A DNA stretch of 64,000 nucleotides from Salvelinus alpinus. Its lineage: Eukaryota > Chordata > Actinopteri > Salmoniformes > Salmonidae. Each line of letters starts with the position of its first letter. Position 1 is the first letter of the stretch. Below the pieces are notes generated by a model, which worked only from the letters and a program-made list of their open reading frames with translations, was not told where the DNA came from and made no database searches. Where the stretch lies: the NCBI RefSeq assembly GCF_045679555.1, contig NC_092096.1, positions 30,838,124 to 30,902,123 on the forward strand, written 5' to 3'. Positions 43,953 to 52,830 of this stretch are shown here, one piece after another. The translations under genes and the position numbers were made by a program.

Positions 43953-48103
<4,151 letters not shown>

Positions 48104-48106
48104 GTT

Positions 48107-48225
48107 TCTGAAACAATTAAATCACAATAATTACCTTCAAAAATAATTAATAGATCATATTTTTGCATTTGTAACTGAGCTCAAGGGGGAACATACCGTC
48201 TTCAGCTTTAGTGCCGTACGAAAAG
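48107..48225 (-). promoter_or_regulatory. rps16 5' UTR exon with TOP start and first intron
   Basis: On the minus strand a CTTTTC tract at 48225-48220 resembles the 5' terminal oligopyrimidine start of ribosomal protein mRNAs. A short exon runs to 48197, where GTATGT begins an intron. The acceptor TTGTTTCAG ends at 48108, four bases before the ATG. TOP mRNAs are translationally controlled by growth signalling (mTOR/LARP1). The start site is inferred from the motif. Confidence 0.65.
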
Positions 48226-48394
48226 ACCGAACCGGGGTTTCAAACACCAAAAATCAGGGGCAGTAGCACGACAGTTTATGGCTTTGCAATGCATTTACGA
48301 TAATTGCAGGCAGAGGGGAAGAGCCGATAATCTGGTTTGAAACTTCTGCACAATTCATTTTTATTTTGTAGCAAACAAAATGTATCACGTATTT

Positions 48395-48764
48395 TGGAAA
48401 CTTAAGCAAATTATTTTCTATTTGACATGTTTAATAAATTCAGTCATAATGTAAATTATTTGACCCATGAATTTAAATGTTGGCAAAATGTAATTCATGG
48501 CCACAACAACAAAGATAGTGAAGCGAGAGGATAAGAGAGGCTAATCTACTCCGCAGTAGTTGCCCGTGAACAATCACATTTGCAGGAGAGTGAAACGAAA
48601 TATAAATAAAATTCACAGACCGTGTTTAATTAATTCAGTCATAATGTAAAATATTTGGGCCATGAATTACATTTTGCCAACATTTAAATTCATGGGTCAA
48701 ATAATTTACATTATGACTGAATTTATTAAACATGTCAAATACAAATAATTTGCTTAAATTTCCA
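48395..48764. repeat. Long inverted repeat, about 108-bp arms
   Basis: Arms at 48395-48502 and 48658-48764 are nearly perfect reverse complements (for example GCAAATTATT against AATAATTTGC and CATGAATTTAAATGTTGGC against its inverse). The 155-bp spacer also ends with a partial direct copy of the left arm (48622-48656, TTCAGTCATAATGTAAA). It begins about 170 bp upstream of the rps16 TOP start. Confidence 0.9.
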
Positions 48765-48786
48765 GAAATATATTGCAGTCAGACCA

Positions 48787-48843
<57 letters not shown>

Positions 48844-48898
48844 AATTGTAGCATATATATATATATAAATATGGTCTATGACTGCAATATATTTCTGT
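48763..48898. repeat. Palindrome centred on a (TA)n tract
   Basis: CAGAAATATATTGCAGTC at 48763-48780 returns inverted at 48881-48898, and the arms continue inwards through GACCATATTT (one 2-base indel). The centre holds about 40 bases of TA repeat and a second short TA run. It abuts the long inverted repeat at 48395-48764. Confidence 0.92.
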
Positions 48899-49008
48899 CC
48901 AGAAGAGGTCACTGTACGAACACGTTTTTCAGAGGACGAAACAAAGCAACTGTGGATGAACTCTTTGGTTTCCAATTTACCCTCGCTTTAATGCCATTGG
49001 GGGAATCC

Positions 49009-49072
49009 CCATCGCGAGTTGTCCAAATGATTAGCCAATCCCCATCGCGAGTTGTCCAAATGGTTAGCCAAT
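49009..49072. repeat. Tandem duplication, about 33 bp x 2
   Basis: CCCCATCGCGAGTTGTCCAA recurs at 33-base spacing, each copy followed by ATG(A/G)TTAGCCAATC. Confidence 0.9.
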
Positions 49073-49173
49073 CATGGGAAGTTTGCAACGTAAGCCCCGC
49101 AGCCCTCGTTTTTAGTCGCCTTTGCGAGCGTACAATTATGTTCACGCTGGATCCTAAAACTCCCCATAATTCT

Positions 49174-49290
49174 ATTCGCGACGATTGTACGTCCGCTAAC
49201 AAGCTACAGGTGGCTGAAGAGTGAACACTTCGCGATGATTGTGTTTTCAGCCACCCGTAGCTTGTTAGCGGACGTACAATCGTCGCGAAT
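49174..49290. repeat. Long hairpin 1, 45-bp arms
   Basis: Arms 49174-49218 and 49246-49290 are reverse complements with one mismatch. The left arm starts ATTCGCGACGATTGTACGTC. The 27-base loop (49219-49245) contains ACACTTCGCGATGATTGTG. Confidence 0.95.
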
Positions 49291-49292
49291 TT

Positions 49293-49489
49293 AATGATGG
49301 GGCGTTTCAGCCCCCAGAGTGGACAGGGTTACGGTCCAAACACTTAAGACACACCCTATCCCCTCAGCCGTCAAATTAAGTGGACACTTCGCGATGATTG
49401 TGGTAATTTGAGGGCTGAGGGGATAGGGTGTGTCTTAAGTGTTTGGACCGTAACCCTGTCCACTCTGGGGGCTGAAACGCCCCATCATT
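49293..49489. repeat. Long hairpin 2, 86-bp arms
   Basis: Arms 49293-49378 and 49404-49489 are reverse complements with one mismatch that I can see. The left arm begins AATGATGGGGCGTTTCAGCC. The 25-base loop (49379-49403) contains the same ACACTTCGCGATGATTGTG as hairpin 1, although the arms are unrelated. A partial relative of the right arm (TTAATTTGAGGG, GGGTGTGTCTT, GTGTTTGGA) lies at 49941-49982. Confidence 0.95.
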
Positions 49490-51242
49490 CAATTCGCGAT
49501 GATTGTACACCTGCTAAATCATTCAAAACTTAAAATCCACATCAATATGGAGAAGTCATCGTACAAGTGTAAGTAAAAACGAATGTAAGTAAGTTAGAAA
49601 TTGTGCTAGTAATGCACATTATGGCACAAACACGTATCATAAGTGTTTTTGTTAGCTTTTGGAAACTTTTATCTAGTGCATACAACTTTCCCTGACATCA
49701 CACTTATACATAGTAATGTTCGATTTACCTGACATTGTCGGATGGCTAGCATGCGTTGTCTTCTAGCCAATATATGAAATGCAATCATAAATGACTAGCG
49801 CATATAAAGCACACACCACAGCTCCAGGTGGTTCCATGATGACTGAAAACAACCGTGGGACGAACTTGTGGCACATTTCCGTGCAAGGGCGTTCCATTCA
49901 TTCTTCCCTCGCTCTGTAAGTGTCAACTCATCATAAGAAGTTAATTTGAGGGAAGAGGGTGTGTCTTTTATGTGTTTGGAACGTAGAAGGGTTTCCCAAA
50001 AGGATCAAGTTTATCCTTAGAACCTTTGTAGGAGCATCGTGAAATCTCCGAGCTGTTTCCCAAAACCAAGTGCACTTGAAAACGCCCGTAATCTAACGCC
50101 TGGCACAGACCACATGAAGAAAACGGTCACGTTAAGTGCATCCTTCGACGCTTTTTCGGCCTAAAAATAGAATTGCATGATTTCTCTCTCTCCGTGACCG
50201 CCGATAACTTCAAAACAAAGTTGACTACAAATACAACGTTTCCAATGATTTTGCAACTGATACAAACAGGCAACGTTAATGATAAAGATATGATTCAAAT
50301 GAACAGTAGGTTATAGGCTAGTGGGGAGATGGATTTGCTGATCTCCAAGCCCCCCAAAATAAACTTCAATACTAACTAAACATTTCGAGATACTTACTCG
50401 AAATGTATAGAAAGTGGAACATGCATATAGGATATTTTAATTTGTAGCATTAGGTTAGCTAGTTAACATTGCCATTAAATCGTCTACAACCTGATCGGGG
50501 ATTTCAGGTGGGGGTGGGGATTTTTAGATGGCCATGTTGCCGAGATCAGCACAGTTTGGCCGCCGGTGTTGTGCCGAAAATGGGAGGAACATGGGACATG
50601 GGAGGAAATCTTGGACGGCAAGGGACCCTGGGCACAGCCGGGAGAGTATCGCCGTCCTAAAGAGGAGCTGGAGGCAGCTAAAGCGGAGCGGCGACGCTAC
50701 GAGGAGTTAGCCTGAGGAGAGGTGCACGAGAGGCACCTCTCCTCAGGGGGGGGGGGCACACGGGGGGCACACGGGGGGGGGGGGCACACGGGGAGATTGG
50801 CGGAGTCAGGTAGGAGACCTGAGCCAACTCCTCGTGCTTACCGGGTGGAGCGTCGTACTGGTCAGGCACCGTGTTATGCGGTGGAGCGCATGGTGTCTCC
50901 AGTACATGTGCATAGCCCGGTGCGCTACATCGCAGCTCCTCGCATCGGCCGGGCTAGAGTGGGCATCGAGCCAGGACGGGTTGTGCAGGCTCGTTGCTCG
51001 AGACCTCCAGTGCGCCTCCACGGCCCAGTGCATCCGGTGCCTCGGCCAAGGATAAGGCCTCCTGCATGTCTTCCCAGCCTGGTGAGTCCTGTGCCTGTGC
51101 TAAGCCCTAACCCTCCTGCATGTCTCCCCAGCCTGGTGGGTCCTGTGCCTGCTCCCAGAGCCAGGCCTCCTGTGTGTCTGTCCACTCCAGTGATAATCCA
51201 TGGCACAAAGCCTCCAGTGATGATCCATGGCACGGGATCAGT

Positions 51243-52127: not shown

Positions 52128-52830
52128 TTTGAACACACCTACTCATTCAAAAAAAAAAAAAAAAAATTGGGGTGGACTATTTTCTATATTGTAGAATAAT
52201 AATGAAGACATCAAAACTATGAAATGACACATATGGAATCATGTAGTAACCCAACAAAAATTAAACAAATATTTTTTTTAAATATTTTTCAAAGTAGCCA
52301 CCATTTGCCTTGACAGCTTTGCATACACTTGGCATTATCTCAACCAGCATCACCTGGAATGCTTTTTCAACAGTCTTGAAGGAGTTCCCATATATGCTGA
52401 GCTCTTGTTGGCTGCTTTTCCTTCACTCTGCGGTCCAACTCATCCCAAACCATCTCAATTGGGTTGAGGTCGGGTGATTGTGGAGGACAGGTCATCTGAA
52501 GCAGCACTCCATCACTCTCCTTGGCCAAATAGCCCTTAAACAGCCTGGAGGTGTGTTGGGTCATTGTCCTGTCTAAAAACAAATGATAGTCCCACTAAGC
52601 GTAAACCAGATGAGATGGCGTATCACTGCAGAATGCTGTGTGCCTTGAATTCTAAATAAATCACTGACAGTGTCACCAGCAAAGCACCATCACACCTCCT
52701 CCATGCTTCACGGTGGGAACCAGATCATCCGTTCACCTACTCTGCGTCTCACAAAGACACGGTGGGTGGAACCAAAAATCTCAAATTTGGAATCATCACA
52801 CCAAAGAACAGATTTCCACTAGTCTAAACA
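52128..52830 (-). mobile_element. Tc1-like transposon fragment
   Basis: Left end AACACACCTACTCATTCAA, then TTGTAGAATAATAATGAAGA, both familiar from a fish Tc1 family. The minus strand encodes a remnant with [20 protein letters not shown] (the catalytic Glu region) and EKQPTRAQHIWELLQ. The sequence stops abruptly at about 52830 without the other inverted terminus, and several internal segments are missing. Confidence 0.8.

Follow-up and report, generated by a model that had tools for sequence, protein, structure and literature searches.

How do two long hairpins with different stems come to carry the same loop? The question is raised by a locus of Salvelinus alpinus, lying in the 64,000-nucleotide stretch of DNA analysed here (C11:30838124-30902123; hereafter the window, to whose positions all unprefixed coordinates refer). 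Two hairpins with arms of 45 and 86 bp, each with 1 mismatch, stand there side by side, separated by only 2 bases (49291-49292). The coordinates bear out this geometry as first described in an initial annotation of the sequence. Folded as single-stranded DNA, 49170-49493 reaches −173.9 kcal/mol, and dinucleotide shuffles of the same segment average −40.8 ± 3.7 kcal/mol, with 0 of 100 matching the real fold.

One 19-base word lies in each loop, as had been noticed, and a core, CGCGA(C/T)GATTGT, does occur five times (at 49177, 49231, 49390 and 49495, and inverted at 49276). The motif had further been placed at every turn point, which does not hold, since only 2 of the 5 copies sit in loops; the other 3 are in, or just past, the outer stem ends. 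The description of the arms as unrelated stands in part. Each hairpin uses different halves of a repeated unit, but under laxer pairing the arms extend (114 nt at 95%; 80 nt at 86%) and overlap in 49265-49325, so that they are not wholly unrelated, both drawing on one inverted segment, called A below.

The transposon family and its pieces at the locus

A search of the 2.37-Gb genome containing the window with 49150-49520 as query gave 122 matches from the best 40 of 696 candidates, and among the matches listed all those outside the window are pieces of at most about 80 bases. A consensus of the family, which has hundreds of candidate places, was built from 15 near end-to-end copies. It is 785 bp long, begins with G, and has 33-bp terminal inverted repeats that are perfect in the consensus. 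The 15 copies are 90% to 96% identical to it, with a mean pairwise difference of 11%. Target-site duplications of either length considered are in excess, with exact 3-bp duplications in 9 of 34 rows (1.6 expected by re-pairing) and 5-bp duplications, one mismatch allowed, in 17 of 34 (4.2 expected), in a set of rows that takes in the window itself, some ends that are open to doubt, and 3 loci counted twice under differing ends.

On its terminal repeats and duplications, PIF/Harbinger-like is a reasonable label for the family. Passages on such elements give repeats of 25 to 50 bp, a range into which the 33-bp repeats fall, and generally 3-bp duplications (PMC9179366), or a first base that is usually A or G and mostly 3-bp duplications (PMC4482050). 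The likeness to non-autonomous PIF/Harbinger-like elements (PHIS superfamily), or MITEs, of teleosts covers the 33-bp repeats starting with G, the excess of 3-bp duplications and the absence of a protein domain, in that a Pfam search of one of the six frames of 48900-50100, with stops as X, returned 0 families. It ends where the window copy has no left repeat. Four strings from the family terminal repeat had no match in the collection of papers searched. The hairpin locus is a rearranged copy of this dispersed, non-coding family of about 785 bp and no new element.

Three segments of the consensus make up the hairpins: A (178-241), B (571-605) and C (720-785). Mapped to the consensus, the window runs forward through element 41-78, 93-241 and 571-590, then in reverse through about 731-720 (placed by eye), 605-571, 241-178, 785-720 and 605-593, and then forward again through 732-785, 178-366, 533-646 and 744-783, the last at 49947-49986. 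The reversed stretch thus reads C' B A C B', between forward flanks A B and C A. The resulting features are collected in Table 1, in which the three copies of A are numbered in window order and E and M denote the two family copies discussed below.

Table 1. Features of the hairpin locus, in window order
Feature	Positions	Strand	Basis or remark
Left flank common to the C37 paralogue, fused to element ~36-41; left terminal repeat missing	48861..48976	+	48861-48981 aligns to paralogue flank, 82.9%; paralogue has left terminal repeat beside it
Part of second family copy M, element 41-241, ending in A1	48977..49202	+	89.6% to consensus (180/201)
33-nt direct tandem duplication within M, one difference	49004..49069	+	Repeat analysis
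Segment A1, last part of M	49139-49202	+	Element map
Hairpin 1, left arm: end of A1 and B	49174..49218	+	
Segment B, element 571-590, joined straight to A1 (joint 241|571)	49199..49218	+	Consensus map
Inverted segment: C' (~731-720), B (605-571), A2 (241-178), C (785-720), B' (605-593)	49219..49404	-	Ends placed to within 1-2 bases
Loop word 1, inverted B|C joint (605|720)	49225..49243	-	
Hairpin 1, right arm: inverted B and end of chimaeric A2	49246..49290	-	
Chimaeric A2, first half like A3, second half like A1	49262..49325	-	Parentage changes between 49282 and 49291
Hairpin 2, left arm: inverted start of A2 and C	49293..49378	-	
Loop word 2, inverted B|C joint (605|720)	49384..49402	-	
Hairpin 2, right arm: C and start of A3	49404..49489	+	
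Segment C forward, element 732-785, reaching the element terminus and joined to host position 177/178	49404..49455	+	
Host element E resumes, A3 onward, element 178-366	49457..49642	+	81% to paralogue
Host element E, element 533-646	49779..49898	+	Consensus map; 49652-50303 aligns to paralogue
Right terminal repeat of host element E	49941..49986	+	Consensus map; same place in paralogue

A genome-wide search with arms and loop motif had been proposed at the outset, and it places the loop word and joints at this one locus only, within 2 to 3 mismatches. The two loop words are the only exact copies of the B|C joint in the genome; with 2 mismatches allowed there are two other places, neither with a family element, and the reversed control gives 12 matches. 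Within 3 mismatches the A|B joint (241|571) occurs only as the two locus copies. The C|A joint (785|178) occurs as two locus copies and at one further place at 3 mismatches, C11:34609733, a family copy that continues differently beyond the terminus. At 60 distinct places elsewhere (62 loci examined, 2 of them repeated) element pieces lie in one orientation only at 55 and in both orientations at 5 (L032, L033, L036, L057 and L059), where some of the pieces may belong to adjacent or nested copies.

A mobile foldback element, one of the ideas first raised, is not supported by these results, as the three unit joints appear private to the locus within 2 to 3 mismatches and 55 of the 60 places have no opposed pieces; we set it aside for want of dispersed copies with long fold-back arms. 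An abundant short A-B-C subfamily inserted at the locus likewise lacks support, its A|B and B|C joints not being found elsewhere in the genome in the same searches. Joints that appear private to the locus point to a one-off rearrangement rather than a dispersed element, and the locus is most likely a one-off genomic scar and not a new kind of element.

Re-inversion of the middle segment

Each joint inside the reversed part is the joint expected of an array A B C A B C A, so that the whole can be read as this array after inversion of its middle part. Re-inverting 49219-49404 raises the best direct-repeat score from 21 to 160, at a lag of 159. Tandem Repeats Finder, which reports no array in the sequence as it stands, then finds one with a period of 160, 2.2 copies and 93% matches. 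The restored units are 159 and 159 bp long, gap-free, and differ by 6 substitutions in 159. Among 200 random inversions elsewhere in the window the maximum score was 35 (mean 8.1), and among 500 with a wider lag range none reached 160, the top four scoring 74, 77, 79 and 141.

A scan of 7200 intervals found none above 160, but the repeat score by itself gives no unique interval. 49220-49403 and 49221-49402 tie with 49219-49404, and a second tied set comprises 49244-49379 and its neighbours, which cover the part between the loops only. It is continuity with the consensus that favours 49219-49404, because B (49231-49265, 97%) and C (49327-49390, 92%) then continue unbroken into the loops in consensus order.

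Judged from the sequence, the hairpins are most likely slightly more than two tandem copies of an A-B-C unit of 159 bp with the middle, 49219-49404, inverted. The likeness of the loops follows from such an inversion, since the inverted piece would consist of one unit plus the B|C joint and so carry that joint, identically oriented, at either end. The two pairs of arms are unlike because in hairpin 1 it is A-B that pairs with the reversed B-A, and in hairpin 2 the reversed A-C that pairs with C-A. No function is indicated for the hairpins, as their pieces are repeat sequence without a recognised domain (one frame searched) and the long stems result from the inversion; the structured RNA precursor among the ideas first raised finds no support here.

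The middle copy of A is informative about how the array could have formed. A1 and A3 differ at 16 positions, 13 of them substitutions and the last 3 positions of the A|B joint; A2 follows A3 through the first 9 of them and A1 through the remaining 7, with no exception, and also has one base of its own that is unlike both. If the 13 substitution sites were assigned at random, a perfect single split would be expected with a probability of about 26/8192. The 2-base gap between the hairpins sits at the edge of the zone in which A2 changes parent. This pattern would fit an unequal exchange between A1 and A3, and homogenisation of the hairpin arms would leave an identical mark.

The ends of the inverted piece bear on the manner of its inversion. 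In the re-inverted order, no exact inverted match longer than 2 bases is present within 8 bases of both ends, whereas human-chimpanzee microinversions are described with flanking inverted repeats of at least 3 bases (PMC8755829). Such a short match weighs somewhat against the inversion, and would speak against a switch mediated by inverted repeats; end joining and a switch of this kind would look the same here. Template switching primed at the CGCGATGATTGT word had been put forward as the most economical origin of the hairpins; such priming is not needed. The word is present twice in the consensus in opposite orientation (element 216-227 and 594-605), a match weak enough for chance (E 7.2), and neither inferred end of the inversion falls within a 19-base loop word, the distances being about 6 and 2 bases on the outer side. 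The rearrangement is younger than the repeat family, in line with the initial view of the palindromes as young or kept homogeneous, in that the units differ at 6 of 159 positions against a mean of 11% between family copies.

The paralogous segment and two parent copies

Window 46467-50505 and 52173-52827 align in order, at 77% to 94% identity, to a reversed segment of C37 (L090, C37:14706000-14714000), which may represent the second copy left by the salmonid genome duplication. The same element stands there at the same site, which implies that the element predates the segment duplication. Both of its terminal repeats are recognisable, and it has no hairpins, no array and no inversion. Six bases lie between the parts matching 48975-49097 and 49452-49642, the single A is 81% to 83% identical to A1, A2 and A3 alike, and about 30 element bases preceding A are absent. 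The C37 copy would represent the state before both array and inversion. A rearrangement at a single locus with an unfolded counterpart, the outcome that the initial annotation had tied to its favoured origin, is what the apparently private joints and the C37 paralogue suggest. The annotation had looked for the unfolded state in a single-arm relative at 49941-49982, which is real and homologous to the stem of hairpin 2, but which is the right terminal repeat of E; the unfolded state is on C37.

Compared with C37, the window has lost the left terminal repeat. CCACTTACC can be read at both ends of this loss, in the paralogue flank and in the family consensus at 36-44, and this common sequence suggests that the repeat was likely removed by a microhomology deletion. 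For the 49004-49069 duplication, a genome search with a 30-base pattern, allowing 3 mismatches, gave the window as its sole place.

From element 178 onward (copy E), the window has the paralogue base at 8 of 28 paralogue-specific sites, with 1.6 expected and 0 to 5 in the 15 family copies, two of which share 4 and 5 such bases in this range, making the 8 an excess but no gulf. Before 178 (copy M), the count is 2 of 35 (1.0 expected; 0 to 3 in family copies). One copy of the 33-nt tandem duplication was dropped from the window row before this alignment. Because E shares an excess of paralogue-specific bases and M does not, E appears to be the old resident and M looks like another member of the family. 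A single element that was simply duplicated into E and M is disfavoured, as M has no more paralogue-specific bases than other copies do.

E keeps its own 533-646 and right terminus, which makes the B and C of the unit extra copies, probably derived from M. The terminus of M (785) adjoins E at 177/178, as a nested insertion would give. Nesting in this family does not seem unique to the window, since element termini also abut internal positions elsewhere: position 178, in the opposite orientation, at 870-1010 of L036, and position 593 at 900-960 of L032. Both are probable nested insertions, and position 178 is perhaps favoured.

Routes to the present structure

The element map, the joints, the chimaera, the gap-free tandem obtained on re-inversion and the unfolded paralogue can be assembled into a history whose order and agents (nested insertion, crossover, and end joining or replication switching) are conjectural. 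The path that we hold most likely, with good though not full confidence, is a nested insertion followed by an unequal exchange and then a precise inversion. An old copy E of the non-coding terminal-inverted-repeat transposon would have been joined by a second copy M, probably through nested insertion. Before or during the joining M would have lost two internal stretches, leaving A|B|C, and with its right terminus at E 177/178 the A of M (A1) and the A of E (A3) would have come to lie about 159 bp apart. An unequal exchange between A1 and A3 could then have duplicated the 159-bp unit and left the chimaeric A2 in the middle. A clean inversion would next have turned round this middle, a piece of about 184 bp made up of one unit and the B|C joint, so that each flank could pair with the unit half facing it, giving two hairpins, and the B|C joint at both ends would give the same loop twice. 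The nesting of M in E falls short of proof, the left end of M being gone and the target-site duplication with it. The double-deleted form of M was not found elsewhere in the genome by the A|B and B|C joint searches, and the event behind the rest of the rearrangement may also have made its two deletions.

The strongest competitor, which we consider unlikely without being negligible, is that template switching during replication or gap repair made the whole structure in one pass. The forward strand would have been left in B, followed by backward copying from C through B and half of A1, a slip to A3, and copying back through C to B before the forward strand was resumed at C. The joints all lie inside one transposon pair, with 0 to 2 bases of homology by eye, and the source sequence is present; there are descriptions of template switching during gap filling in terminal-inverted-repeat elements of animals (PMC8277862), and of template switching as a process able to create stems in a single event (PMC8794818). 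This route is the less economical one, because its exit and return points (590/593 and 731/732) must coincide by luck, where a two-break inversion gives them free, and because the re-inverted units are equal in length with no gap. A clean inversion would likewise result if the array underwent a four-point template switch.

Somewhat less probable again is that a single replication-repair episode, copying another family member, produced everything at once: the lost left end, the three joints (A|B, B|C and C|A), the duplicated unit and the inverted middle. If true, this would be a chromoanasynthesis-like burst at a 500-bp scale, by which a mobile element became a pair of stable hairpins with one loop in common, and such a burst could seed hairpin RNA genes.

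Two further readings have very little probability left. One has the B|C joint already inverted in each unit, with a shorter inversion, 49244-49379, between the loops making the hairpins. It reaches the same score at the same lag, but the unbroken run of B and C into the loops in consensus order would require an extra small inversion before the duplication. The other, an assembly or library artefact from fold-back chimaeric reads, is at odds with the substitutions scattered between the units and with an A2 that is chimaeric between two different copies. Weakest of all is a mobile foldback element or a hairpin RNA gene under selection, which the very stable fold might suggest and which is opposed by a loop word without an exact copy beyond the locus, by the lack of opposed pieces at the 55 places and by stems that come from a dispersed non-coding repeat.

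The locus has relatives among known processes. Short-range template-switch mutations and microinversions (PMC8794818, PMC7954356, PMC8755829) share with it the reverse-complement copies, near-perfect stems and a clean inverted segment. The stems here differ in owing their origin to the position of the inverted piece inside a direct tandem array, and that piece is about 184 bp long, compared with 17 to 33 nt for the human-chimpanzee microinversions of PMC8755829. Gap filling and FoSTeST in animal terminal-inverted-repeat elements are alike (PMC8277862) in that breaks inside an element are refilled with rearranged sequence; here no captured non-element sequence was seen, and the pieces all come from the family itself.

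Adjacent hairpins that differ in their stems and agree in their loop can thus arise without selection, by inverting one unit plus a bit in a short tandem array, and this twin-hairpin signature is something to look for elsewhere before such pairs are called functional. The paralogue makes much of the history of the locus readable, with no new element or function revealed.

The C37 copy of the element has an unrelated insertion of about 750 bp inside it. A second inverted repeat at 48390-48770, with 113-nt arms at 89% and a nested one of 46 nt inside, is probably older, as related inverted sequence is present on C37. On the other side of the hairpins, 50007-50304 belongs to another dispersed repeat, with matches of about 70% at many places.
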